In this document: positions 3,506-20,718 of the stretch, piece after piece
Layout: each line of letters starts with the position of its first letter
How positions within the stretch are numbered: position 1 is the stretch's first letter
NCBI GenBank assembly: GCA_014382695.1
Contig: JACNJF010000099.1
Coordinates: 1 to 45,507 of the forward strand
Length of the DNA: 45,507 nt
Direction of reading: 5' to 3'
DNA from: Gammaproteobacteria bacterium
Lineage (GTDB): Bacteria; Pseudomonadota; Gammaproteobacteria; GCA-001735895
Program-made: the position numbers and the translations under genes
Notes under the pieces: model-generated
What the model saw: only the letters and a program-made list of their open reading frames with translations
Told to the model about the DNA's origin: nothing
Databases searched by the model: none

Positions 3506-4144
3506 ATGAACCAGCCCAAAGAAAAACTCTCCGCATTACTGGATGATTTTCGCAATACCGAGCAGGATAATGCGGTATTAGATGATTTGCTGAAAGACGT
3601 AAATCAGCGCTATACCCTGAGCCGCTACCAGCTGATTGGCGATATCGTTCGCAACGATACTGCTGATCGCATCGAGCCGGATTTTTCTCAGCGTGTGATG
3701 ACCCTGATCGAGCAGGAACCTTCATTACGCCCGCAACCCGAAGCTGCAAAACTGAGAGACCAGAGACAGTCTTCGGGGCTATGGTCATTCTTGTTTAAAC
3801 CGGTGGCCGGCATAGCGGTTGCGGCAACCGTCGCTTTTGTAGCGGTGTCTTCGCTGGGCCCAGTATTGTCACCGAAAGATTCTTCTGGCCAATTTGCGGC
3901 TAATAGTTCCAGCCTGAAAGTTGAAAAACTGGTTAGTCTGCCGGTTATTTCAAATGCGGTCAGAGTCTCTGCCGGGAGTGCATCTTCGGCTCTGCAAAGT
4001 GGCATGAACTGGAAGATCAAGCGCAATGAACCGGCTATTCAGAAAAAACTGAATACCTACCTGATTAATCATAATGAAAACTCAAACTCGATGCATGGCA
4101 TTATCCCTCAGGCACGAGTCGTTGGATTTGATGCTCAGAAATAA
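3506..4144 (+). CDS. rseA: anti-sigma-E factor RseA/MucA
   Basis: Inner-membrane anti-sigma factor that holds RpoE at the membrane until cleaved by site-1 and site-2 proteases. The cytoplasmic N-terminal domain (residues 1 to about 80) has the LSALLDDF...YQLIGDIVR signature that binds sigma region 4. A single transmembrane helix lies at about 96-116, followed by a periplasmic domain of roughly 95 residues whose end (QARVVGFDAQK) resembles MucA more than E. coli RseA. At 212 aa it is close to MucA length. It starts 34 bases after rpoE. No truncation is seen, so the alginate-type derepression caused by mucA frameshifts is not indicated here. Confidence 0.93.
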   Translation: MNQPKEKLSALLDDFRNTEQDNAVLDDLLKDVNQRYTLSRYQLIGDIVRNDTADRIEPDFSQRVMTLIEQEPSLRPQPEAAKLRDQRQSSGLWSFLFKPVAGIAVAATVAFVAVSSLGPVLSPKDSSGQFAANSSSLKVEKLVSLPVISNAVRVSAGSASSALQSGMNWKIKRNEPAIQKKLNTYLINHNENSNSMHGIIPQARVVGFDAQK

Positions 4145-5668: not shown

Positions 5669-7075
5669 ATGCAAAAACTTTCTATCCATCTGTTTTCAGC
5701 CATCCTGCTGATATTCTTCAGCAGCCAGGCATTTGCCCAACTTCCCGATTTTACCGGCATTGTGGAAAGGGCTAAAGACTCTGTGGTGAATATCAGTACC
5801 AGTAAGAAGATAAAAACCGGTAGCCTGAAAAAGCATCTTGAAATGCCTGAATTGCCAGAGGGGTCGCCGTTTGGAGAGTTATTTAAAAAGTTTTTTGATC
5901 ACGATGGCGGGTTCGGGTTTAAAGATCGTGATACCAGTTCACTAGGCTCTGGCTTTATTATTTCAAAAGATGGCTACGTGCTGACCAATCATCATGTGAT
6001 TGAAGGTGCGGACGAAGTTATTGTGCGTCTGACCAATCGTGAAGAGCACGAAGCACGCGTGATTGGCTCGGATAAAGATTCCGACATCGCATTACTCAAA
6101 ATAGAAGGTGAAAACTTTCCGACCTTAACGTTTGGTGATTCTAACGTGCTCAAAGTCGGGGAATGGGTACTGGCGATTGGCTCTCCTTTCGGTTTCGATC
6201 ATACCGTAACGGCCGGGATCGTGAGCGCCAAGGGACGTAGTCTGCCAAGTGATAACTACGTACCTTTCATTCAAACCGACGTCGCCATCAATCCCGGTAA
6301 TTCTGGTGGTCCACTGTTCAATATGAATGGTGAAGTGATCGGTATTAACTCCCAGATCTACAGCCGCTCGGGTGGTTTCATGGGACTGTCATTCGCGATA
6401 CCGATTGAGATGGCGGTTGATGTGGCGGAACAGATCAAGAATACGGGCAAGGTTTCACGTGGCTGGCTGGGTGTACTGATCCAGGAAGTGACCGGTGAGC
6501 TGGCCGATTCGTTTGGGATGACGAATCCCCACGGTGCTCTGATTGCGAAGGTTCTGGATGATAGTCCGGCCCAGAAAGCGGGACTTCAGGTTGGTGACGT
6601 CATTGTTGAATTCAATGGTAAGAAAGTGACCCGCTCGAGTAGTTTGCCGCCGATTGTGGGGCGCACACCAGTGAATGAAAATGCAAAGGTAACGCTTATC
6701 CGTAATCGCTCCAGAATGACGTTAAACGTCAAAATCGCTCAGCTTCCGGAAGATATTACGCAGGCTAAAGCCGAGCCGGAAGTCAAACAGGAAGAGAATA
6801 AAACGACCCTCGGTATGGTGGTGAAAAAACTGGATAAAGCCATGCAGCGCGAGCTCAAGGTGGATGCCGGGGTACTGGTAGAGCAGGTGGATGAAGACAG
6901 TCCCGCTAAAATGGCAGGCATCCGCAAAGGCGATGTGATCAGTATGCTGGATAATCACAGTATTAACTCGGTCGATGAATTCGAGGATATCGCCGCCAGG
7001 CTGAAGTCGGGGAAATCGGTTGCGATATTGATTCAGCGTAGTAATGGCCCGGTTTTTCTGGCCATCAAGCCGTAA
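5669..7075 (+). CDS. degP: periplasmic serine protease DegP/MucD
   Basis: HtrA-family serine endoprotease and chaperone that degrades misfolded envelope proteins. A signal peptide ending SSQAFA precedes a trypsin-like domain with the catalytic triad His109 (TNHHV), Asp139 (DSDIALLK) and Ser212 (GNSGGPL), followed by two PDZ domains at about 255-350 and 375-465. Length 468 aa matches MucD of Pseudomonas. It is the last gene of the sigma-E operon, 35 bases after rseC, which fits MucD rather than the separate DegP locus of enterics. It probably limits sigma-E activation by removing the misfolded proteins that trigger it. DegQ-type naming is equally possible. Confidence 0.95.
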   Translation: MQKLSIHLFSAILLIFFSSQAFAQLPDFTGIVERAKDSVVNISTSKKIKTGSLKKHLEMPELPEGSPFGELFKKFFDHDGGFGFKDRDTSSLGSGFIISKDGYVLTNHHVIEGADEVIVRLTNREEHEARVIGSDKDSDIALLKIEGENFPTLTFGDSNVLKVGEWVLAIGSPFGFDHTVTAGIVSAKGRSLPSDNYVPFIQTDVAINPGNSGGPLFNMNGEVIGINSQIYSRSGGFMGLSFAIPIEMAVDVAEQIKNTGKVSRGWLGVLIQEVTGELADSFGMTNPHGALIAKVLDDSPAQKAGLQVGDVIVEFNGKKVTRSSSLPPIVGRTPVNENAKVTLIRNRSRMTLNVKIAQLPEDITQAKAEPEVKQEENKTTLGMVVKKLDKAMQRELKVDAGVLVEQVDEDSPAKMAGIRKGDVISMLDNHSINSVDEFEDIAARLKSGKSVAILIQRSNGPVFLAIKP

Positions 7076-7097
7076 AACTCCAGGATAGATATATTCC

Positions 7098-7337
7098 TTG
7101 AATAAACAGTTTACGCTTTACTACAGAGAAAACTGCCACCTGTGCGAGTCGATGCGACTGGCACTGGTGGCGTTAAAGCGGAAACTGGATTTCAGCTGGG
7201 AGGAAATCGATATCGATCGTGATACGGCGCTGATTTTCAGGTACGACACACTGGTGCCGGTGCTGGATTATCAGGGTGTCGAAGTCTGCCATTACTTCAT
7301 CGATCAGCCGGCCATTGAGGCCATCATTGCGCGCTAA
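7098..7337 (+). CDS. glutaredoxin-like protein (DUF836 type)
   Basis: A 79-residue thioredoxin-fold protein of the short glutaredoxin-like group (DUF836). The redox motif CHLC sits at residues 13-16 after the first beta strand (FTLYYREN), and the conserved cis-proline region appears as TLVPVLDY. The only usable start is TTG at 7098, 22 bases after degP, with AGGA some 12 bases upstream; there is no ATG before the CxxC motif. The same small gene sits between mucD and lepA or nearby in several gammaproteobacteria. Its partner and substrate are not known. Confidence 0.8.
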   Translation: MNKQFTLYYRENCHLCESMRLALVALKRKLDFSWEEIDIDRDTALIFRYDTLVPVLDYQGVEVCHYFIDQPAIEAIIAR

Positions 7338-7496
7338 TATCCGAGCATAGGATTTTTGCGCCTGATCATCCCTCTGCATCAGCGGTGCCGGGCGAAAGAA
7401 ATCTACTAAATACTAAATATACTTATCTTTCCTGTCTCTTTGATTCAGTTTCCCGTAAAATTCGCGGGTTTTTTAACAGGTCTTCTGATTATGCGG

Positions 7497-9293
7497 ATGA
7501 AAAATATCCGGAATTTTTCCATTATTGCTCATATCGACCACGGTAAGTCCACCATTGCAGATCGTTTTATCCAGATTTGTGGTGGTTTGAGTGAACGTGA
7601 AATGTCCGCACAGGTTCTTGACTCTATGGATATCGAGCGTGAGCGCGGTATTACCATCAAGGCCCAGTCGGTTTCGCTGGAATATCTGGCGAAGGATGGT
7701 GAGCGCTATCTGCTCAACTTTATTGATACCCCCGGGCATGTGGATTTTTCCTATGAAGTGTCACGCTCGCTGGCAGCCTGTGAAGGGGCTCTGCTGGTGG
7801 TTGATGCGTCTCAGGGTGTCGAAGCTCAAAGTGTGGCGAACTGCTATACCGCGATCGACATGAATCTGGAAGTTATTCCAGTGCTAAATAAGATTGACCT
7901 GCCGGCAGCTGATTCGGTGCGCGTCAAAAAAGAAATTGAAGACATTATTGGGCTGGATGCATCGCATGCCATCGAGGTCAGTGCCAAGACCGGTGTCGGT
8001 ATACCGGAATTGCTGGAGCAGCTGGTCGCGCTGGTGCCACCACCCAAGGGTAGTGCAGATAATCCAACACAGGCTTTGATCATTGATTCCTGGTTCGATA
8101 GCTATGTCGGTGTGATTACGCTGGTGCGGGTGATGGAAGGCGTTATCCGACCGAAGCAGAAAATCAAAATGATGTCGACCGGACGCGAGTTTTATGTGGA
8201 TCAGGTGGGTGTGTTTACCCCGAAATTGACGGCAACTGCGGAACTGTCTGCGGGATATGTGGGTTACATCATTTCCGGCATCAAGGATATAGAATCGGCA
8301 AAGGTCGGTGATACGATTACCACCACGATCAATTCAGCCAGCAGCGCCTTACCCGATTTTAAGGAAGTGCAGCCGCGTGTATTTGCCGGACTGTTTCCAA
8401 TCGCTTCGGAAGATTACGAAAACTGCCGGGAAGCGCTGAAGAAGCTGAAGCTGAACGATGCGGCTTTGCAGTTTGAACCCGAAACCTCGCAGGCACTCGG
8501 CTTTGGTTTTCGTTGTGGATTCCTTGGCATGCTGCATATGGAGATTGTGCAGGAACGTCTGGAACGGGAATACGACCTGGATCTGATTACCACTGCGCCC
8601 ACCGTGGTGTACCAGATTGAAACCACTTCCGGGGAAATCATAGAAATTAATAACCCGGCAGAGTTACCTCCAATCAACAAGATCAACCAGATCATGGAGC
8701 CGATTATCCGGGCCAATATACTGACACCGGAAGCCTACATTGGCTCCATTATCACCCTGTGCATCGAAAAACGTGGTGTGCAGAAAGAGATTGTGTATCT
8801 GGGCAGTCAGGTCTCCATTGTCTATGAGTTGCCGATGAGCGAAGTGGTACTCGACTTCTTTGATCGACTGAAGAGTGTGAGCCGCGGCTATGCCTCGTTC
8901 GACTACGAATTTTTGCGTTTTGAAGCGGCCAATCTTGTCAAACTGGATGTACTGATCAACAATGAAAAAGTGGATGCGTTGTCGGTCATCGTGCACCGTG
9001 ATAATGCCGACTACCGTGGACGTGAACTGGCCAGTAAAATGAAAGAACTGATTCCGCGTCAAATGTTTGATGTCGCGATTCAGGCGGCCATAGGCGCTAG
9101 TATCATCGCCCGAACCAACGTCAAGGCGCTGCGTAAAAACGTAACGGCGAAATGCTACGGTGGCGATATCACACGTAAGAAAAAGCTGCTGGAAAAACAG
9201 AAAGCCGGTAAAAAACGTATGAAACAGGTTGGTCGGGTTGAAATCCCACAGGACGCCTTTCTGGCGGTTCTCCAGGTGGACAACAAAAGCTAA
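7497..9293 (+). CDS. lepA: elongation factor 4 (LepA)
   Basis: Ribosome-associated translational GTPase LepA/EF4, acting in translation and ribosome assembly. The G domain shows the P-loop AHIDHGKST, switch region [13 protein letters not shown] and NKIDLP; domain II, the EF-G-like domains III and V, and the LepA-specific C-terminal domain ending GKKRMKQ...[10 protein letters not shown] follow. The track starts at 7440, but the ATG at 7497 gives [19 protein letters not shown], aligning with E. coli LepA, and a 598-residue product against 599 in E. coli. An ATG two codons earlier (7491) is also possible. It leads into lepB, the conserved pairing. Confidence 0.97.
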
Positions 9294-9316
9294 TCCCAAT
9301 AACGGAAAAAGAAAAT

Positions 9317-10114
9317 ATGATTCATTTTGATTTCGAGTTTCTACTGGTCGCAGCAGTGCTGGTCAGTGGCATTATCTGGCTGCTGGACAGCCTGCTTTTT
9401 GCTGCCGGACGTAAACAGCGTGCGCAGGGTCATGCGGTGCATGAACCGATACTGGTGGAGTATGCCAAATCTTTTTTCCCGGTACTGTTTGCGGTGATGA
9501 TTCTGCGCTCATTCGTGTATGAACCATTCCGTATTCCTTCCGGCTCGATGATGCCGAGTTTACTGGTGGGTGATTTTATTCTGGTGAATAAATATGATTA
9601 TGGTATCCGCCTGCCGGTCGTGCATACGCAGTTAACCGAAGGCAATAAGGTTAAACGCGGCGATGTTGCGGTGTTCCGCTTCCCCGATGATGAAAAGCTC
9701 GATTTCATTAAACGGGTGATAGGCCTTCCGGGCGACCATGTGAGTTATTATAATCGCCGACTGATGATCAATAATAAACCTCTCGAGGTTGTGTTAAAGG
9801 AAGTTTACCCTGGACAGGGTACGGGTAAGGACAATATGAAAGGAAGCGAGGTGTATATTGAGACGCTGGACGAGATCAGTCATCTAATGATGACCGATGA
9901 CAACGTGAAATTTAGTGCTAACGGCGAACTGATTGTGCCTGAAGGTCATTACTTTGTGATGGGCGATAATCGTGACCACAGCAATGACAGTCGCTTCTGG
10001 GGTTTTGTTCCTGAACAGAATCTGGTCGGCAAAGCGGTCAGAGTCTGGATGCACTGGGACTGGCGTAGTGATGGCAGCGGGCTCGATCTTTCTCGTATCG
10101 GTAATAAAATATAG
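9317..10114 (+). CDS. lepB: signal peptidase I
   Basis: Membrane serine protease that removes signal peptides from exported proteins. Two N-terminal transmembrane segments (about 8-28 and 52-68) anchor a periplasmic catalytic domain. The catalytic dyad is Ser77 in PSGSMMP and Lys132 in DFIKRVIGLPGD; the box GDNRDHSNDSRFWG is complete. Length 265 aa is slightly shorter than E. coli's 324 but normal for Pseudomonas-like enzymes. It follows lepA by 23 bases, the standard lepA-lepB pair. Confidence 0.97.
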   Translation: MIHFDFEFLLVAAVLVSGIIWLLDSLLFAAGRKQRAQGHAVHEPILVEYAKSFFPVLFAVMILRSFVYEPFRIPSGSMMPSLLVGDFILVNKYDYGIRLPVVHTQLTEGNKVKRGDVAVFRFPDDEKLDFIKRVIGLPGDHVSYYNRRLMINNKPLEVVLKEVYPGQGTGKDNMKGSEVYIETLDEISHLMMTDDNVKFSANGELIVPEGHYFVMGDNRDHSNDSRFWGFVPEQNLVGKAVRVWMHWDWRSDGSGLDLSRIGNKI

Positions 10115-10125
10115 AGGATATGGCG

Positions 10126-10494
10126 ATGAATAAACACGCACAACAGGGCTTAACTACGATTGGCTGGATTGCGGTTATTGGTATTTTTAGCATGATTGTG
10201 GTTACTGGATTTAAGGTTCTACCGATGTATCTGGAATTTTTTCAGATACGTTCTGTGATGGACAGTGTGGCGATCGATGAAGAGATCGATGTGCGTTCCA
10301 AAAATGACCTGTGGACCGCCATCAGCAAGCGCTTGATCATCAATCAGGTTAAAGTGCTGACGAAAGAAAACTTTACCTTTGAGCGCAACAAGGATCAGAC
10401 CACGATCAGCGTAAATTATGAAGTGCGTAAGCCCTATGTCGCACAGTTATTTCTGGGTGCTAATTTCAGTTATGCGGTAGTGACTACCCGGTGA
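10126..10494 (+). CDS. DUF4845 membrane protein
   Basis: Small inner-membrane protein of the DUF4845 family, regularly found between lepB and rnc in gammaproteobacteria; function unknown. One transmembrane helix lies near residues 12-32 after a QQGLTTIGW segment that recalls pilin-like N-termini, and the rest is a small periplasmic domain. The track starts at 10120, only two bases from the AGAGG element; the ATG at 10126 has proper spacing (eight bases) and gives 122 aa. Its stop overlaps the rnc start (GTGA), implying translational coupling. Confidence 0.85.
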   Translation: MNKHAQQGLTTIGWIAVIGIFSMIVVTGFKVLPMYLEFFQIRSVMDSVAIDEEIDVRSKNDLWTAISKRLIINQVKVLTKENFTFERNKDQTTISVNYEVRKPYVAQLFLGANFSYAVVTTR

Positions 10495-11165
10495 AGACAC
10501 TACAGCAGTTGCAGGCAATCATTCACTATCAGTTTAATGATGAACTGCTACTCAAGATGGCGATCACGCATCGTAGTTTTTCCAAAAATAACAATAATGA
10601 ACGGCTCGAATTTCTGGGCGACAGTATTCTCGGCCTGGTCATCTCCGGTCATCTGTTCAACCGTCTGGAGAGTGCATCGGAAGGTGAGCTAAGCCGGGTC
10701 AGAGCCAGCCTGGTCAAGGAAGAATCACTTGCCATGGTGGCCAGAGATATTGAGCTGGGAGAGTTTTTACGACTCGGCAGTGGAGAGCTGAAAAGTGGAG
10801 GCTTTAGACGTGCCTCCATTCTATCCGATGCGCTGGAGGCTATCTTTGGCGCGATCTACCTCGATGGCGGTTATCGTCAATGCGAAAAAACCATTCTCTT
10901 TCTGTATCAGGATTACATGGTGACACTGCCCGCGCCGGGTGATTTGAAAGACCCGAAAACGTCGCTGCAGGAACATTTGCAGGGTCAAAAGATTGAATTG
11001 CCGGTTTACGACGTGGTCAACACCGAGGGCAAGTCACATGATCAGATCTTTACCATCGAGTGCCGTATCGAAGAATTAAGCGTACTCACGGAAGGTAAGG
11101 GTAGCAGTCGTAAAAAAGCGGAGCAGATGGCCGCATCCAAAGCTTTAGCGCAGGTGAAAAAATGA
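10491..11165 (+). CDS. rnc: ribonuclease III
   Basis: Double-strand-specific endoribonuclease for rRNA and mRNA processing. The RNase III domain carries the signature NERLEFLGDSILGLVIS with the metal-binding acidic residues, and a second acidic site in SDALEAIFGAIYLDGG. The dsRNA-binding domain occupies about 155-222 with the GSSRKKAEQMAA helix. Length 224 aa is typical. It starts with GTG overlapping the DUF4845 stop and ends overlapping the era start (ATGA), the classic rnc-era coupling. Confidence 0.97.
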   Translation: MKTLQQLQAIIHYQFNDELLLKMAITHRSFSKNNNNERLEFLGDSILGLVISGHLFNRLESASEGELSRVRASLVKEESLAMVARDIELGEFLRLGSGELKSGGFRRASILSDALEAIFGAIYLDGGYRQCEKTILFLYQDYMVTLPAPGDLKDPKTSLQEHLQGQKIELPVYDVVNTEGKSHDQIFTIECRIEELSVLTEGKGSSRKKAEQMAASKALAQVKK

Positions 11166-12052
11166 ACCCCTCTTTTCAATGCGGCTATGTGGCGTTGGTT
11201 GGTAAGCCGAATACCGGAAAATCGACCCTGATGAATGCGCTGGTGGGGGAAAAGCTGAGTATTACCGCACATCGACCTCAAACCACGCGCCATCAGATAC
11301 TTGGCATCAAAACCACCGAACAGTATCAATGTATTTTCGTGGATACACCCGGCATCCATCAGGATCAGAAAAAAGCCATCAACCGCTATATGAATCGTGC
11401 AGCGACCAGCGTGCTGGATGATGTGGATCTGATCTGCCTGTTGCTCGATGTGCGTCATTTTAATGGTGATGATCTACAGGTGCTGAAAAAGATTGAGCAT
11501 CTGCAGAATGTGATTCTGGTGCTGAACAAGATGGATCAGATACAGAAAACCGACTTGTTACCGCTGATGCAACGGATCTCACTGTTACGACCGGGTCTGG
11601 ATATAGTTCCAGTGTCTGCTCTGAAACAGGAAAACCTTGAGCAATTGATGGTCCAGATACAGAAAAGACTGCCGCAGGGAATTCCGCAATTTCCCGATGA
11701 TCAACTCACCGATAAGCCGATGCGTTTTATCGTGGCCGAGATTATCCGCGAAAAGCTGTTTAGAACATTGACCCAGGAATTGCCCTATTCGATTACGGTG
11801 AATGTTGAACATTACAAAACGGAATCCGATCTGGTGCGTATCTCGGCATCGATCTGGGTTGAGCGTAAATCCCAGAAGGGTATAGTCATCGGCAAACAGG
11901 GCGCATTACTGAAAAAAATCGGGGTAGAGGCACGCGCCGATATCGAGCGCCTGGTTGACTCTAAAGTGTATCTGCAGCTGTGGGTTAAGGTACGCGAGGA
12001 CTGGTCGGATGATGAGCGATCTTTATCGGCTTTTGGTTACTCCAACGAGTAA
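11162..12052 (+). CDS. era: GTPase Era
   Basis: Essential GTPase that binds 16S rRNA and helps 30S maturation. Seen motifs: G1 GKPNTGKST, switch region HRPQTTRHQILGI, G3 DTPGIH, G4 NKMD and G5 near SALK; a type-II KH domain with IVIGKQGALLKKIG occupies the last 80 residues. Length 296 aa is standard. It overlaps rnc by four bases and is followed after 62 bases by recO, the conserved order. Confidence 0.97.
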   Translation: MNPSFQCGYVALVGKPNTGKSTLMNALVGEKLSITAHRPQTTRHQILGIKTTEQYQCIFVDTPGIHQDQKKAINRYMNRAATSVLDDVDLICLLLDVRHFNGDDLQVLKKIEHLQNVILVLNKMDQIQKTDLLPLMQRISLLRPGLDIVPVSALKQENLEQLMVQIQKRLPQGIPQFPDDQLTDKPMRFIVAEIIREKLFRTLTQELPYSITVNVEHYKTESDLVRISASIWVERKSQKGIVIGKQGALLKKIGVEARADIERLVDSKVYLQLWVKVREDWSDDERSLSAFGYSNE

Positions 12053-12114
12053 GCCTGATCTGGCGCAAGATCCGCGACGGAATCTGAGTTCCTCGCAGCT
12101 GCGTTAATCGAGCC

Positions 12115-12825
12115 ATGCAAAACAGAGTTAATGATCAGCCAGCTTTTATTCTGCACCGCAGAGACTTTCAGGAATCGAGCCTGATCCTGGAGCTTTTTAC
12201 CATCGATTTCGGGCGCATCAGTGTGCTGGTCAAAGGCGCCAGAAAACGCCGCGATGCCGCCTATTTTCAAACCGGACATCGTCTACAGCTGGGCTGGGGC
12301 GGCCGCTCTGCGTTAAAGATTCTGACCCAGATTGATTGCCGTCCCTTACAGATACCTCTCAAGCTGTATTCCTGCGTGTTTTATGTGAATGAGTTGCTGC
12401 TTTACCTGCTACCCAGGGAGCAGGAGCAGCGTGACTTATTCCATCGTTATCAGCACCTGCTGCTGGAGCTGGCGCAGCATCAGGCAGATGACAGTCTGGA
12501 GGCGGTTTTAAGATCGTTTGAAATGGATCTGCTACAGCAACTGGGGCTGATGCCGGATCTGACCATGGAGCATTATTCAGAGCAGTCGGTGCAAGCTGTG
12601 CTGCATTACACTTTTGATATGCTGACGGGGCTGAGACGTTGCGAGGATGGCAGCGAGGCTGGGTTCGGTGGGGGAGAATTACTCAGTATTCAACAACGCC
12701 GGTTTGATACTACAGCTGTGCTGAAAGCGGCAAAACGTTTGATGCGGAAAATAATTGATTACAACCTGCAAGGCAGAACGCTACAATCGCGTAAACTTTT
12801 TCAACAGTTAAACAAGAAACCATAA
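12115..12825 (+). CDS. recO: DNA repair protein RecO
   Basis: RecO works with RecR and RecF to load RecA on SSB-coated single-stranded DNA. The N-terminal OB fold contains [17 protein letters not shown] and the [14 protein letters not shown] basic stretch, followed by the helical domain. Length 236 aa is normal. As in many gammaproteobacterial RecO proteins, no zinc-binding cysteine set is seen. It lies between era and pdxJ, with pdxJ starting one base after its stop. Confidence 0.95.
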
Positions 12826-13584: not shown

Positions 13585-13965
13585 ATGCTCGCTGGTATCG
13601 GTGTAGATATCGCTGAAATTGCGCGCTTTGAACGGATGATCGAACGCTTTCACGATCGTATTGCACAGCGTATTTTAACCGGCAATGAACTCAGTCAGTT
13701 CCAGCATAGAAAGAGCAGCAGTGCTTTTCTGGCACTGCGCTTTGCTGCGAAAGAGGCGGCCAGTAAGGCGCTGGGATGCGGCATGACGGGAGGTATCGGG
13801 TTTCATTCGATCGAGGTTGTGAATGATCAAAGTGGTAAGCCCGAGCTGGTTTTTCATGGTGCGGCCAAAAAGCTGATCCAACAGAGAAATATCAGCCGGA
13901 CGCTATTGTCGCTATCCGATGAAAGACATTATGCGGTGGCTATGGTGGTGCTGGAGTCTGACTAG
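13585..13965 (+). CDS. acpS: holo-[acyl-carrier-protein] synthase
   Basis: Phosphopantetheinyl transferase that moves 4'-phosphopantetheine from CoA to the ACP serine. The metal-binding motif GIGVDIAEIARF opens the protein and the second signature RFAAKEAASKAL is present. Length 126 aa is typical. It begins two bases after pdxJ. Its last 26 bases overlap the end of the oppositely transcribed sensor kinase gene, so no terminator separates the two convergent units. Confidence 0.96.
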   Translation: MLAGIGVDIAEIARFERMIERFHDRIAQRILTGNELSQFQHRKSSSAFLALRFAAKEAASKALGCGMTGGIGFHSIEVVNDQSGKPELVFHGAAKKLIQQRNISRTLLSLSDERHYAVAMVVLESD

Positions 13966-16687
13966 GTTCGCAATCAGCCTTGCTGTCGATGAACTGTTTG
14001 AGTGCCTGCTCAACGGCCTTTAATTCACTATTCACCTGACTGGCCAGCTGCAATACCATAACTTCTTCGTGGCTGTCCTTGAGCGCTTCGTATTGCTTCA
14101 ATAATTGACTTAAGGCTGGCAGAGCGGCATAACAGACTACACCATGCAGGATATGCATGATGGCGCCAATTTTTTCCAGATCGACCGAGCCTATCGCAAA
14201 GTTCAGTACGTTCTTATAATCCGGTAATTCCTGTTGCAGCATCGTAAACGTCGAAATTACCAGCTTTTCCTGGTTCGCACAGAGTTTCAGGGTTTGCGCG
14301 AAATCGAGCGATGATAAAGCCCCGGTCGGTGCATCCGTTTGCGGTTTGACGGTTGAGACCGGCTGCTGATGATCCAGCAGGTTTTTCAGTTTCTGCTCTT
14401 CAATCGGCTTACTGATATAGCCATCAAACCCTAGATTCAATAGCCTTTCCTGTTCTTTTTCCAGTACGTTTGCGGTAATCGCAATGATCCGAGTGCAGAG
14501 TTCGGGTTGTTCGTTGCGCATCATCTGCATCAGTTCGATGCCATCAATTTCCGGCATCTGAATATCCAGCAGGATCAGGTCAAACGACTGCACTTTAAAC
14601 AACTGCATGGCTGCCCGGGCATTGTTGGCCTGGGTTGGAAGATGCCCCCAGATCCGGGTCAATTCACATGCCAACGCCAGATTAATGGCATTGTCATCCA
14701 CGATTAAAATATTTTTTGCGTTATGCTGACTGGGTTTTTCTACATTCGCCAGCGCTGGCTCTGGAGCTGGATCTGACTTCAGTTGCGTCATCAGACTGTG
14801 CAGTTTGTTCGAACTGTTGATGACGGAAATAAACTGGTAATCGGCATAGCTGGAAAGCTTGACCAGGCTCGGGTCGTAATGCATCACGATGACGCGTAGG
14901 CACTGTTGATGCGCTTTTTGTGGAATTAATTGATCGGGGTGCAGGCTGCTGTGACGTAAGTCGAATACTATAAAGTCGATGTAGCTCAGATTTTGCATCA
15001 GTTGCTTCTGGTAGCGATCGATCAAAGACGGGTCTTTAATCAGCTCCGCTTCAACATTAAAACCTGCTCGATTGTATAAAGACTGTAACTCACTCAGGGC
15101 GCGTTCATTGAATGCATAGATCAGCACCGTCTGACTATGATCTGTCGAATCTGCCGTGTCATTCTGAGCAGGAACTTTATCGAAGGGTAGTAATAGTGAA
15201 AACAATGAGCCACGATTTGGCTGACTGGTGAGCTGAATCATGCCACCCATCAGGATCGCGAGATTTTTTGAAATAGCCAGTCCCAGACCGGTTCCGGTGA
15301 AGCGGCGATTGATGTCTGACTCAATCTGTTTGAAGGCCTTAAACAGCGTTTTCTGGTTTTCGATATTGATACCGATCCCGCTATCTTCAATATCGAAGCG
15401 GATCATGGCTTTTTTGGCACTTTCATCCTCCATGATGACGGTAATAGAGACAAAACCCTGATCGGTAAATTTGATCGCATTGCCGATTAGATTGATGAGT
15501 ATCTGTTTCAGGCGGTACTTGTCGCCGGTCAGCATTTTCGGGGTATCGCTGTAGATGCTGAGGTAGAGATCGATATTTTTTTCGATAGTGCTGGCAAACA
15601 GGCTGTCGCGCGTTGACTCAACCAGCTCGTGTAGATCGAAGGGTGTGTTAATCAGTTCGATTTTCCCAGATTCTATCTTTGAAAAATCCAGGATTTCATT
15701 CACGATATTACTCAGATCACGGGTGGACTGGGTAATGATGTCGGCATAGCGCAACTGCTCCTGGCTTAATCCGGTTTTAAACAGCAGGGTGAGAAATCCC
15801 TGGATACCATTGATCGGGGTACGGATTTCATGGCTCATATTAGCCAGGAACTGGGTTTTAACTTTATCGGCTTTCTGTGCCGTATCGCGTGCTAGTGCGA
15901 GTTCATAATTGTTTTTCTCCAGATCACTCACCGCCAGACGTAAATCGATCGTGGCCGATTTAATCTTTTCATCCAGCTGCCTGCGATTAGCCAGCAATGC
16001 CTGCGACATACTGTTAAAACCTTTCTGTACATCACCAATCTCATTCGCTTCAAGAGGGTTGATGATGTCACCCAGGTGTCCGGTTTCTATGCGGTTTAAA
16101 TGATTCAGCAGGCTATATACCGGACGTGTTATACGACGGCTGATGCTGAGTGTGAGTAGAATGGCCAACAGTAGCATGGCAAAGAAAAAAAACGCACCTT
16201 CCTTGAAGATACGGGAAATCGTCATCTGTAGCTGCTGTTTCGAAATATACATATGGACCCAGCCCAGATTACGGCTGATGGCGGTGTCGGTCGGTTTACC
16301 CGGTTCAAAGATATCTTTCGTATCCAGCGGATGGGTCTGAATGTTCTGCCGATAATATGAGTATTCGGTACTCAACAAAGGCTGGTAATCACTGCCAACA
16401 GTACGGGCAATAATGCTGCCATCGATATTATAAACCGCAATAAAGATGATATTGTTGGTATTGATCGACTGTTCCAGCAGGCGTCGGATCTGCTCATAGC
16501 TACCGGTTAGTAGACCGAATTCTGAGGCACTGGCGATTTGCTGAGCAATAATTTCACCCTTGCTCTGGAGCAGCTGCTCGGCCTGGTCGATATTGCTTTT
16601 AATCAGCACATAAGTGAAGAAAGCATCGATCAGCAGGACCGGAATCATCGCAATCAGCAGAATCTGGTGCTTAATTCTAAAGCGCAT
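13940..16687 (-). CDS. barA: GacS/BarA-type hybrid sensor kinase
   Basis: Tripartite hybrid histidine kinase of the BarA/GacS family. In order: TM1 (about 9-29), a periplasmic sensor domain (30-160) resembling that of BarA, TM2 (163-182), HAMP (183-236), HisKA with His286 in LANMSHEIRTPING, an ATPase domain with DSGIGI and GTGLGLAIS, a degenerate receiver-like stretch (about 519-640) lacking the N-terminal acidic pair, a full receiver with Asp708 in LLDIQMPEIDG, and a C-terminal Hpt with His845 in MHILHG. Synteny supports the orthology: acpS on one side, cysM-rlmD on the other, as for gacS in Pseudomonas and barA beside rlmD in E. coli. The cognate regulator UvrY/GacA is not here. Unusually, it is the third gene of an operon behind a periplasmic binding protein and a TonB receptor. 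Confidence 0.88.
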   Translation of the reverse strand: MRFRIKHQILLIAMIPVLLIDAFFTYVLIKSNIDQAEQLLQSKGEIIAQQIASASEFGLLTGSYEQIRRLLEQSINTNNIIFIAVYNIDGSIIARTVGSDYQPLLSTEYSYYRQNIQTHPLDTKDIFEPGKPTDTAISRNLGWVHMYISKQQLQMTISRIFKEGAFFFFAMLLLAILLTLSISRRITRPVYSLLNHLNRIETGHLGDIINPLEANEIGDVQKGFNSMSQALLANRRQLDEKIKSATIDLRLAVSDLEKNNYELALARDTAQKADKVKTQFLANMSHEIRTPINGIQGFLTLLFKTGLSQEQLRYADIITQSTRDLSNIVNEILDFSKIESGKIELINTPFDLHELVESTRDSLFASTIEKNIDLYLSIYSDTPKMLTGDKYRLKQILINLIGNAIKFTDQGFVSITVIMEDESAKKAMIRFDIEDSGIGINIENQKTLFKAFKQIESDINRRFTGTGLGLAISKNLAILMGGMIQLTSQPNRGSLFSLLLPFDKVPAQNDTADSTDHSQTVLIYAFNERALSELQSLYNRAGFNVEAELIKDPSLIDRYQKQLMQNLSYIDFIVFDLRHSSLHPDQLIPQKAHQQCLRVIVMHYDPSLVKLSSYADYQFISVINSSNKLHSLMTQLKSDPAPEPALANVEKPSQHNAKNILIVDDNAINLALACELTRIWGHLPTQANNARAAMQLFKVQSFDLILLDIQMPEIDGIELMQMMRNEQPELCTRIIAITANVLEKEQERLLNLGFDGYISKPIEEQKLKNLLDHQQPVSTVKPQTDAPTGALSSLDFAQTLKLCANQEKLVISTFTMLQQELPDYKNVLNFAIGSVDLEKIGAIMHILHGVVCYAALPALSQLLKQYEALKDSHEEVMVLQLASQVNSELKAVEQALKQFIDSKADCEPSQTPAPP

Positions 16688-16723
16688 CAGCGCAAGTCTT
16701 TAAAGGGGCGACAGTGATAAGCT

Positions 16724-17671
16724 TCATTCCGACTGATCCTGTTTCAGCTTTTGCAGCAACTCTTCTTTATCGGGTAGCTGCAGGCCCAGCGAGCGGGCAA
16801 CATTCGGATTAAACTTGATATCGAATTCCGAGGAAAAATACACGCCCTGAGGCTGGAATGAATTATCGTCGAGTATTTTATTTAATAAAGCCGCCGTTTG
16901 CCGGCCAATATTCTCGGGTGAAGAATAGATAGCCGCGAGTGCTCCGGATTTAACCTGGGAAGGCGAGTAGCTGATCACGGGTTTGTTCTGTCGATAGGAG
17001 GTTAGCAATATACCTTTTAGTGTGTTGCGATTATACACATCCGGCTCAGGCAGGCTGAGCAGCACATCATTTTTCTGTAACAGATCCCTGACCATATTAA
17101 TCGGATTATCACCGACTGAAAACAGGCGTTGTTCCAGCTGTATGTCGAGGCTTTGATTCAAATCCTGAATGCGCTCGGGATCCAGCGCCGTGCTTTTATT
17201 TTTAATCAGACCAATTTTTTTTGAGCCCAGTAATAGTTTGATAAAGGTCAGATAGCGCTGTAGCGGTTGATCCAGCAGAATAATGTAATGCTGTAGACTG
17301 TCGGCATGCTGCTGGAGCTGGAATTCGGTAAGATAGGTGTGAATCACCGGTTTTTTCTGTGTGCGATGAATGGTGAAATTCGCCGCATCCAGTCCGAAGG
17401 TGATGACACAGCCTGCAGACAATAGCGCAGAGTCATCGCTGTGCAGAGTGTCCAGTGTGACTATCTGGAACTGTACCTGAGGTGTATGCAGGATCAGTTG
17501 TTCAATACTGCTATTGAAAAAACTGTTTTCATTACTTTTTATGATCAGGACCGACTTGTTATCAGCATAAACGGCTATAGAAAATAGTAATATTCCAACG
17601 CTCAGACAGGCTTGCCATAGCCTTCTGTCTGCAAGTGTTGTTATCCATCTATGGAAGCAAAATCCTGTCAT
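16724..17671 (-). CDS. periplasmic ABC-type substrate-binding protein
   Basis: Resembles the ABC transporter substrate-binding family PF04392 (BMP/LivK-like two-lobe fold). An uncleaved or late signal sequence at about 15-37 (LSVGILLFSIAVYA) directs it to the periplasm. The second lobe has the family hallmarks PVISYSPSQVKSGALAAIYSSPENIGRQ and a C-terminal FNPNVARSLGLQLP. No permease or ATPase gene accompanies it. It lies 10 bases after the TonB receptor and 36 bases before the hybrid kinase, all on the minus strand, so a sensory role, delivering bound ligand to the kinase periplasmic domain, is more plausible than transport. That role is inference. Confidence 0.8.
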   Translation of the reverse strand: MTGFCFHRWITTLADRRLWQACLSVGILLFSIAVYADNKSVLIIKSNENSFFNSSIEQLILHTPQVQFQIVTLDTLHSDDSALLSAGCVITFGLDAANFTIHRTQKKPVIHTYLTEFQLQQHADSLQHYIILLDQPLQRYLTFIKLLLGSKKIGLIKNKSTALDPERIQDLNQSLDIQLEQRLFSVGDNPINMVRDLLQKNDVLLSLPEPDVYNRNTLKGILLTSYRQNKPVISYSPSQVKSGALAAIYSSPENIGRQTAALLNKILDDNSFQPQGVYFSSEFDIKFNPNVARSLGLQLPDKEELLQKLKQDQSE

Positions 17672-17681
17672 CAGATATTTT

Positions 17682-19721
17682 TTAAAACCTGCTTGAGATC
17701 CTTAATAGCAATGATTTTTCCTGAATATTTCGAATCAGGTATTCAGAGTTCTGATCAGCCAGATTATAGCCAATCAGTTCCAGCTGGGTGTCATATTTAC
17801 GATTGAGTGTGAATTGATAACGCATATCGAGCTTGCCGTAACCGGAGATTGTTCGACTCGTATCTATCCAGCTCAGTTGATCCACGCTGTAGTAGGTGAA
17901 TGACAGCTGTTGAGAGGGTGTAACATTGATATGACCACCGGCAAAGGCGGTAAGCTCCGGAAATGATTCTTCTAACTTGCTATGGCTGCTGTCTGCACTG
18001 AGTTTGCTCAGACCCGTATAGAGTCGATATTTTTTGTGTCTGGGGCTGAAGTTGAGCGAAGCCTCCACGCCTTTCACGGAGGTCTCCGCCTGATTTTGCG
18101 GGAATTTATAATCTTCGACCACAATGATACCAGTAGCTGGATCGATATTGATCTGCTTTACTTCGGTTTCGATAATCTGGTCACTGATATCGTAGCTAAA
18201 AACCTTGATGTCAGTGGTGACCTGACGATCCAGAAACTCGCTGAACAGGCCAATTTCGGTAGACTGAATGGTTTCCGGCTTAAGGTTTCCATCGGTTTTC
18301 CAGGTTAAGAACGTAATCGTGGACGGAAGCCCGGGTATAGTCGGAAGGTTAAGATCATACCGGGTGTCGCCAGCGATTTCATACAGGAAGGGGTTGCGTT
18401 TAGCGCTGGATCTGACCAGGCGTAGATTATGCTGATCTATTTTCTTAATGATCGATAAACGTCCGGATAATTCGCGGTCGGTAAAACTGGTGTCTTCCAG
18501 CATGGCGCCAACATCAAGGATCAGGGTGTCATCGACTCTCCACTCCAGGCTTGAGAAAAGCCGGTTGGCACGGATAATTTTTTGCTCTTTGTTGTTGAAG
18601 AAAAAGAAAGACTCGACTTCATCCTTGCGCAGGCTACCACCATACACCATGGTGTGCTGACTTCCGAGCGGTCGGCTTTGATAGATTTCCAGGTCGGTAC
18701 GCTCCGAGTCCCGGTCGAAGGAAATGCCAGCGGTGATATCGGAAAGCGCCTCATAGACCGGTGCCGGTAAGAGTGGCGCTAATAAGTCATCCAGAAATTC
18801 GTTTAATCGCTCGGTCTGAAAACTGTCTGACACATCCTGCCGGGTGTGGCTCAGCTGAATGGTGGTGCTGACCTTGTCCTCGATCAGTTCCCATTTGATA
18901 TTCTGATAGCTATTGGATGAATCCTCTTCACGAAATGGATTGCTTGTTTCGCCTTCGCCGCGTTCGAACACGCTCTGGTTGATACCGGCCTGAATGGTCC
19001 AGAACTGGTTGTAGGCGGTCAGGAAATCGGTTCGGATATTCAGTTTTTCCAGCAGTTTTCCATCAAACTCTTCTTTATAGCCATCGTCTTTTTCACGTCC
19101 GGCCGTCAGTCGCCAGTCCAGATCACCGATCTGATTGCCAACCCGGAAGTAGATGTCTTGAGCTTCGCTATCAGAGTCCAGGTCGTGAGTTACACTGACC
19201 TTGCTACCAACGTCTTCGGCGGCATGACGCGTGATAATATTGATGGTGGCCAGAAAGGCATTGGCACCATAGGTCACGGCATTCGGACCACGGGTGACTT
19301 CTACACGCTCAATATCATCCAGCAGCAGCGGCAGGTTAGACCAGGGCACGCCACCGAAAGACGGTACGAACACCGATCGACCATCGATCAATACCTGCAT
19401 CTGGCGGTGCCATTCGCTACCCAGACCGTGATAGGTCACCGCGGGCTTACTGCCCTGCCGGTAGCCCACCACAAATCCGGGGATCATACGAAAGATATCG
19501 ACGATTTCGCGCGCACCGGAGTTACGGATCATCTGGCGGTCAATCACACTCACCGAGGCGGGAGAATCTTCCAGCGGTTTATGCATTCTGGAAACGGTTA
19601 ATACCATTGGAGCTTCACCGAAAAAATCCGTTTCAGCGAGGTATTCGTCTGCTGTAGCCATGACGGCGAAGCTGGACAGACAAAACAGCGCAGTTACGCC
19701 GATCAACGATTGGGCTTTCAA
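17682..19721 (-). CDS. TonB-dependent outer-membrane receptor
   Basis: TonB-dependent receptor of 679 aa. After a signal peptide (ending VMATA) comes a candidate TonB box region (MVLTVSRM), a plug domain (about 50-165, with VSVIDRQMIRNSGA and RVEVTRGPNAVTYGANAF) and a beta barrel ending in the outer-membrane-protein signature LLLRISSRF with terminal Phe. The start is TTG at 19721 with GGAG six bases upstream; no ATG is nearby in frame. Substrate is unknown: no siderophore, cobalamin or sugar gene is adjacent. It heads an operon with a solute-binding protein and a hybrid kinase. The plug region is of the short type often seen beside signalling proteins rather than the FecA type, as no N-terminal signalling domain is present. 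Confidence 0.88.
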   Translation of the reverse strand: MKAQSLIGVTALFCLSSFAVMATADEYLAETDFFGEAPMVLTVSRMHKPLEDSPASVSVIDRQMIRNSGAREIVDIFRMIPGFVVGYRQGSKPAVTYHGLGSEWHRQMQVLIDGRSVFVPSFGGVPWSNLPLLLDDIERVEVTRGPNAVTYGANAFLATINIITRHAAEDVGSKVSVTHDLDSDSEAQDIYFRVGNQIGDLDWRLTAGREKDDGYKEEFDGKLLEKLNIRTDFLTAYNQFWTIQAGINQSVFERGEGETSNPFREEDSSNSYQNIKWELIEDKVSTTIQLSHTRQDVSDSFQTERLNEFLDDLLAPLLPAPVYEALSDITAGISFDRDSERTDLEIYQSRPLGSQHTMVYGGSLRKDEVESFFFFNNKEQKIIRANRLFSSLEWRVDDTLILDVGAMLEDTSFTDRELSGRLSIIKKIDQHNLRLVRSSAKRNPFLYEIAGDTRYDLNLPTIPGLPSTITFLTWKTDGNLKPETIQSTEIGLFSEFLDRQVTTDIKVFSYDISDQIIETEVKQINIDPATGIIVVEDYKFPQNQAETSVKGVEASLNFSPRHKKYRLYTGLSKLSADSSHSKLEESFPELTAFAGGHINVTPSQQLSFTYYSVDQLSWIDTSRTISGYGKLDMRYQFTLNRKYDTQLELIGYNLADQNSEYLIRNIQEKSLLLRISSRF

Positions 19722-19830: not shown

Positions 19831-20718
19831 ATGACGCTGCAAGATTATATCGGTAATACCCCTCTGGTCAGGTTACAGCGTCTGGGTGCTGCAAACCCGA
19901 CGAATACGATTCTGGTGAAACTCGAAGGTAATAATCCGGCCGGTTCGGTAAAAGACCGTCCTGCTCTCAGTATGATTAAAAATGCCGAACAACGCGGTGA
20001 GATCAAACCGGGCGATACACTGATTGAAGCTACCAGTGGTAACACCGGAATCGCGCTGGCAATGGCGGCTGCGATCATGGGCTACAAAATGGTGTTGATC
20101 ATGCCGGATAACATGAGTGCGGAGCGGCGCGCAGTGATGAAGGCGTATGGCGCTGAACTGATCCTGGTGACGAAGGAAGAAAGCATGATGGGCGCGCGTG
20201 ACCTGGCTGATCGGATGCAGGCGCAGGGCAAAGGCATCGTGCTGGATCAGTTTTCCAATCCGGATAATCCGTTGGCCCATTATGAGTCGACTGCACCAGA
20301 AATCTGGCAGCAGTCTGAACATCGCATTACACACTTTGTCAGCTCGATGGGTACCACCGGCACCATCGTTGGCTGTTCGCGCTATTTTAAGCAGGTCAAT
20401 CCGGCCATTCAGGTGGTCGGGGTGCATCCGGCGGAAGGTTCCAGTATCCCCGGTATCCGACGTTGGCCGGAGGAATATCTGCCCAAAATCTATGATCCCA
20501 CCCATATCGACCGGATCATGGATGTGACGCAACAGGAAGCAGAGCAGACCACGCGCGACCTGGCCGCACAGGAAGGTATTTTCTGCGGTATATCTTCCGG
20601 AGGAGCTGTGTCTGCAGCACTGCGCCTGTCGGCTACGCTCGAAAACGCAACCATCGTGAGTATTATCTGCGACCGTGGTGATCGTTATCTATCGACCAAT
20701 GTATTTCCTGCCAACTGA
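19831..20718 (+). CDS. cysM: O-acetylserine sulfhydrylase B (CysM)
   Basis: PLP-dependent cysteine synthase that joins O-acetylserine with sulfide or thiosulfate. The PLP lysine is Lys41 in NPAGSVKDRPA, the phosphate/substrate loop reads EATSGNTGIALA, and the SMGTTGTI glycine-rich PLP phosphate loop is present. At 295 aa it has CysM rather than CysK length, and the loop SNPDNPLAHYESTAPEIW is CysM-like. Position next to rlmD agrees with the Pseudomonas cysM-rlmD order. Cytosolic; divergent from the TonB-receptor operon. Confidence 0.95.
   Translation: MTLQDYIGNTPLVRLQRLGAANPTNTILVKLEGNNPAGSVKDRPALSMIKNAEQRGEIKPGDTLIEATSGNTGIALAMAAAIMGYKMVLIMPDNMSAERRAVMKAYGAELILVTKEESMMGARDLADRMQAQGKGIVLDQFSNPDNPLAHYESTAPEIWQQSEHRITHFVSSMGTTGTIVGCSRYFKQVNPAIQVVGVHPAEGSSIPGIRRWPEEYLPKIYDPTHIDRIMDVTQQEAEQTTRDLAAQEGIFCGISSGGAVSAALRLSATLENATIVSIICDRGDRYLSTNVFPAN

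Follow-up and report, generated by a model that had tools for sequence, protein, structure and literature searches.

A TonB-dependent receptor (TBDR), a stand-alone periplasmic binding protein (SBP) and a BarA/GacS-type hybrid kinase (HK) are encoded in series in the window, by which we mean the whole stretch of 45,507 nucleotides that was analysed. From sequence comparison we consider it probable that the SBP is a dedicated co-receptor acting on the beta2-beta3 loop of the HK sensor, with the TBDR supplying the ligand, the three forming one input-and-sensor module to UvrY/GacA and CsrA. The putative partnership between SBP and kinase is the central step of this mechanism and the best supported one; ligand delivery by the TBDR is probable, the TBDR itself being dispensable.

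The operon and its place in the genome

The locus holds the following features:
13585..13965, plus strand: acpS, on the left of the conserved gacS locus and convergent with HK (ORF)
13940..16687, minus strand: HK, BarA/GacS-type hybrid kinase of 915 aa, sCache_4-HAMP-HisKA-HATPase-pseudo-receiver region-REC-Hpt (ORF, Pfam, NCBIfam)
16301..16315, minus strand: candidate SBP-docking motif, HK residues 125-129, D-I-F-E-P, in the sCache beta2-beta3 loop (column scan, fold)
16724..17671, minus strand: SBP, stand-alone periplasmic binding protein of 315 aa, PF04392 / aromatic-amino-acid-binding fold (ORF, Pfam, fold)
17682..19721, minus strand: TBDR, TonB-dependent receptor of 679 aa, Plug and barrel, TTG start (ORF, Pfam)
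19831..20718, plus strand: cysM, on the right of the conserved gacS locus and divergent from TBDR (ORF)
19844..19871, minus strand: promoter-like site upstream of TBDR, CTGACC-16-TATAAT (consensus match only)

The preliminary description had read a minus-strand series of receptor, binding protein and kinase of BarA/GacS architecture, and the open reading frames, Pfam and NCBIfam matches bear this out. The three genes share a strand, with gaps of 10 bases between TBDR and SBP and 36 bases between SBP and HK, and the classical gacS locus reads acpS-HK-SBP-TBDR-cysM-rlmD in the window. The 3' ends of acpS and HK overlap tail to tail by 26 bases (13940-13965). A separate promoter for the kinase, which had been named as evidence against a joint module, was looked for in a consensus scan of the operon strand: no promoter-like site lies between the three genes, and the sole one outside them is upstream of TBDR, the others being intragenic; such sites are consensus matches only and in this region are no commoner than chance.

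The N-terminus of the SBP resembles a signal peptide, and the protein matches PF04392 with 30.5 bits, just above the cut-off of 25.9. Closest to it in fold and sequence are the aromatic-amino-acid binding proteins of that family (CD0873, 6hni; TrpX-type 3lft, 3lkv), at an identity of only 14-18%, and because of this nearest fold the ligand is perhaps an aromatic compound. The structures matched by the SBP model also include the complex of LuxP with the periplasmic domain of LuxQ (2hj9). Unlike the SBP, those of the PF04392 proteins with solved folds whose role is known are linked to transporters or adhesion.

As had been stated, no permease, ATPase or siderophore gene was found near the operon in the window. 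The permease and ATPase genes of a PF04392 ABC importer are thus missing from the operon, and the SBP gene adjoins a kinase gene with no transporter. This bears on the proposal that SBP and TBDR serve nutrient uptake, together with a transporter (an ABC permease or another) whose genes lie elsewhere, and share only a transcript or regulator with HK. Both proteins do belong to uptake families, and in one genome (G032, L074) a distant PF04392-like protein lies by genes of 297 and 264 aa, a candidate canonical ABC set; nevertheless, with an operon that lacks permease and ATPase, and with the losses described below, we regard nutrient uptake as an unlikely role.

HK contains sCache_4, HAMP, HisKA, HATPase_c, Response_reg and Hpt domains, the complete BarA/GacS order; H286 is present, as is H845 in the HxLHG motif of Hpt. 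Aligned along its length with E. coli BarA, it shows 28% identity in 918 positions. Its best NCBIfam match is BarA, with 530 bits over residues 3-899, the model cut-off of 890 not being reached; this threshold was chosen to fit near relatives of the E. coli protein. As HK falls below it, we name the protein BarA/GacS-type and not BarA in the strict sense. HK is the only full-length kinase of this type in its genome and is encoded by rlmD and cysM; in E. coli, too, barA abuts rlmD. The genome has csrA and a single UvrY/GacA, which shares 47-48% identity with its E. coli counterpart and has uvrC immediately behind its gene. HK therefore shares with the BarA/UvrY and GacS/GacA systems the full domain order, the rlmD-side locus of E. 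coli and a UvrY beside uvrC, and differs from them in the SBP and TBDR genes that precede it. The locus position, together with UvrY/GacA and CsrA in the genome, upholds the GacS/BarA identity first assigned to it.

The same genome encodes another kinase with a full-length match to the BarA model (496 bits), on contig C50; it was rejected as the true BarA and is no competitor to HK, since it has another type of sensor and lies behind a YfiR-like gene. That set (G000, contig C50 1-5922, L193) consists of the upstream ORF, which we read as YfiR-like, this second full-length hybrid kinase and a REC-PAS-GGDEF-EAL type protein, and is another pair of periplasmic protein and kinase in this genome. 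No perfect GacA site (TGTAAG-N6-CTTACA) occurs in the genome, so the sRNA arm was not located; two one-mismatch sites are present, not above the control pattern, and the RsmY model gave a weak palindromic match below the family cut-off.

Conservation and loss of the three genes

In a survey of 41 genomes of the window's order, HK was found at the acpS/cysM locus in all but one and the SBP in 34; the best SBP copy is always the neighbour of HK, between acpS and cysM, and the two genes often overlap by four bases. The locus reads TBDR-SBP-HK in 23 genomes, SBP-HK in 10 and HK alone in six; of the remaining two, one is undecided at a contig end and one has no clear kinase at the locus. For the 10 genomes with SBP-HK, the contigs extend to cysM; the TBDR is thus missing from 10 of the 33 SBP-HK loci of the family that could be resolved. 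None of the six HK-alone genomes has a TBDR remaining there. Within the family, no TBDR was observed here unless the SBP was there too, and no SBP orthologue was found away from a kinase. These nested states point to an ordered loss, in which the TBDR goes first, the SBP next and HK is retained. The three-gene layout, given its conservation, is far beyond chance; when conservation of the order was checked, the SBP proved tied to HK and the TBDR more loosely attached, with all three genes together in the 23 genomes only. In one locus (L063, G029, 8952-9966), the SBP appears as two overlapping ORFs, from a frameshift or an assembly error.

That 10 genomes of the family keep the SBP but not the TBDR, and that no kinase-free SBP orthologue was found there, also speaks against nutrient uptake. 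The order of loss bears as well on a FecA-style surface signalling, in which the TBDR would signal to HK with the SBP as an accessory. In most loci the TBDR does adjoin a signalling protein; but the Pfam search of the TBDR gave Plug and barrel and no STN signalling domain, neither FecR nor a sigma factor is encoded next to it in the window, so that the features of a FecA-type transducer are absent, and it is the TBDR that is lost first while the SBP is retained. We consider such signalling very improbable. With the TBDR optional, the ligand can probably enter by another way or be made locally.

Across the class, SBP-profile relatives were detected in 78 of 370 genomes (43 families, codes counted from the table), about one in five of those sampled. 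Outside the window's family this gave 73 SBP loci. In 69 of them the SBP adjoins an sCache_4/HAMP receptor, which is a BarA/GacS-like kinase at 63 loci and a different protein with sCache_4 or HAMP at six; the other four loci have no adjacent receptor. Among the 63, two have the SBP on the opposite side of the kinase and one is truncated where its contig ends. The TBDR is upstream of the SBP in 55 of the 73. Beyond the class, an SBP-kinase pair with no TBDR occurs in a small number of f192 genomes, which belong to a different class. Independent travel of receptor and binding protein, raised beforehand as the finding that would separate them from the kinase, does not apply to the SBP and applies in part to the TBDR, which is looser, and to the four receptor-less loci. 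The suggestion of a delivery module fixed to GacS is weakened, because in other lineages the pair stands by a shorter hybrid kinase or by a protein with GGDEF and EAL domains.

The four loci with a TBDR-SBP pair and no adjacent receptor (L110, L115, L127, L136) are what nutrient uptake would lead one to expect. In L115 the pair is followed by trmO-fabA-fabB-rlmL, and gene sizes are similar in L110 and L127; this locus has perhaps lost its kinase. In another locus (L088, G109, 6916-12427), the order is TBDR-SBP followed by an sCache_4-HAMP-PAS-GGDEF-EAL protein, i.e., the input pair is placed on a c-di-GMP output, and the loop reads VDDYEPD.

A further explanation is that only shared history, in a conserved part of the chromosome, keeps the genes together and that SBP and kinase have no joint function. 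In its favour, the order acpS-kinase-cysM-rlmD is highly stable in its own right, and for two neighbouring pairs of this kind, AgtB-AgtS and PA4985-AruS, no interaction was found (PMC11113362). Yet at least two of the markers acpS, cysM and rlmD are present at 34 of the 62 class kinase loci, about half, and in about a third of the class loci SBP and kinase lie together away from these markers. Besides, their order is inverted in L118 and L142 while adjacency holds, and the TBDR-SBP pair is elsewhere joined to sCache_4 GGDEF-EAL proteins and to shorter hybrid kinases. At loci with rlmD, the partial correlations among SBP, HK and TBDR distances, with the rlmD distance removed, are 0.61, 0.64 and 0.71, and those of the three with cysM, 0.19-0.36, are below these mutual values. 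Taking these observations together, we judge shared history without function to be quite improbable, and a working SBP-kinase pair the preferred reading.

A loop motif in the kinase sensor

A motif, D-[IV]-F-x-P, at HK residues 125-129 is intact in all 32 SBP-linked kinases of the family and broken in all six SBP-less ones. It was spotted by eye before a scan was made, and the scan itself covered every column of the sensor domain, comparing the same 32 and six kinases. The SBP-less kinases have lost most at columns 126, 129 and 127, followed closely by 125, against a mean retention in these kinases of 88% across 131 conserved sensor columns. The decay of the motif upon SBP loss is a further point against nutrient uptake. 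In one genome (L069, G005), an 82-codon SBP remnant (3760-4005) lies beside a kinase whose loop still reads SEVFAAD, which on its sequence we take to be decay in progress.

The motif sits in a poorly defined loop between strands, residues 120-138, a low-confidence part of the single-chain model. This loop corresponds to the beta2-beta3 'major loop' of P. aeruginosa GacS, which is flexible and bears residues needed for signalling (PMC5595915).

Over the class, D-(x)-[FY] was present in the loop of 40 of 62 SBP-linked kinases and in none of six SBP-less ones, and a looser loop pattern in 57 of 62 and one of six, respectively. The strict D-x-[FY] was rejected as a class-wide motif, as 22 of the 62 SBP-linked kinases outside the family miss it; since it is not universal, the motif is claimed firmly only within the family. 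Similar loops are found in SBP-linked receptors with other outputs (VDDYEPD in the GGDEF-EAL protein, VDDFAID, LDDFSLA), and the motif is absent from pseudomonad-like GacS and E. coli BarA. On the tree, about 3.6 of five independent pairs show a joint change of motif and SBP, and none a change in opposite directions (sign test, p = 0.125); the independent SBP changes, five well supported and eight in all, are too few for significance.

Proposed signalling route and known systems

Taking into consideration the conservation, the loss pattern and the loop motif, the earlier picture of a gate, a binder and a kinase is strongly supported as far as the SBP serving HK is concerned, and is weakened for the TBDR, which is dispensable. 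We propose that: (i) the TBDR would take a scarce ligand across the outer membrane; (ii) the SBP would capture it in the periplasm; (iii) the SBP would then dock on the HK sCache_4 domain via the flexible beta2-beta3 loop, at D-[IV]-F-x-P; (iv) docking would shift the balance of kinase and phosphatase activities of HK; and (v) this balance would control UvrY/GacA and, downstream, CsrA. Ligand binding by the SBP, docking on the loop, ligand supply by the TBDR, the direction of control and the Csr output are all inferred.

Binding-protein-dependent hybrid kinases are already known: in LuxP-LuxQ and TorT-TorS, a type-I periplasmic binding protein is encoded beside the kinase, and the SBP gene likewise adjoins that of HK. 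The present system differs in its PF04392 SBP, its sCache_4 sensor with the loop motif, the TBDR in front and the Gac/Csr output. In Vibrio cholerae, the binding protein NspS controls the GGDEF-EAL enzyme MbaA, a parallel to L088, where the SBP is next to a membrane GGDEF-EAL protein; the present system uses another SBP family, adds a TBDR and has an input domain that serves kinases as well. What appears new is the joining of such kinases to a TBDR and a BarA/GacS kinase in many families, a TBDR-SBP-GacS arrangement of which we found no description in the open-access literature, the scope of our search.

A related set is seen in the f143 genomes inspected, where TBDR, SBP and a hybrid kinase with REC and no Hpt domain lie beside fabA-fabB (L213-L216, L221; Pfam-confirmed in L213, with the same gene sizes in the others). 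These genomes are probably pseudomonads (Pseudomonadaceae), as they carry RsmY, which scored above the cut-off in those tested. The same tested genomes have a separate GacS, distinct from the SBP-linked kinase, with no SBP in its 1.5-kb flank and no loop motif; E. coli BarA likewise lacks both. In P. aeruginosa, the GacS-related hybrid kinase PA1611 is reported to bind RetS and relieve GacS (PMC4866733). The SBP-linked kinase of f143 may correspond to PA1611, judging from architecture and gene position. The fabA-fabB neighbourhood that the f143 set occupies is also the position of PA1611.

It is conceivable, and we offer it tentatively, that TBDR-SBP-sCache_4 was the ancestral input of gammaproteobacterial BarA/GacS, that E. 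coli BarA and pseudomonad GacS are derived and lost both SBP and loop motif, and that the input was re-plugged onto c-di-GMP enzymes and a PA1611-like Gac modulator. If so, this would account only partly for the failure of screens with isolated GacS periplasmic domains to yield a ligand, as the SBP input would have been replaced in the pseudomonad protein.

The signal of GacS has long been sought, and many failed candidates are listed (PMC7695008). SBP and TBDR genes in front of a GacS/BarA-type kinase suggest that the signal is read through a binding-protein partner. If many such kinases hear in this way, the ligand should be sought on the soluble SBP, which is easily purified and screened, and the D-I/V-F-x-P loop of the kinase offers a one-residue test of SBP coupling. 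Through the TBDR, a global lifestyle switch would be coupled to an energised gate in the outer membrane; with the same input reused on c-di-GMP enzymes, the set would amount to a general sensory cassette.
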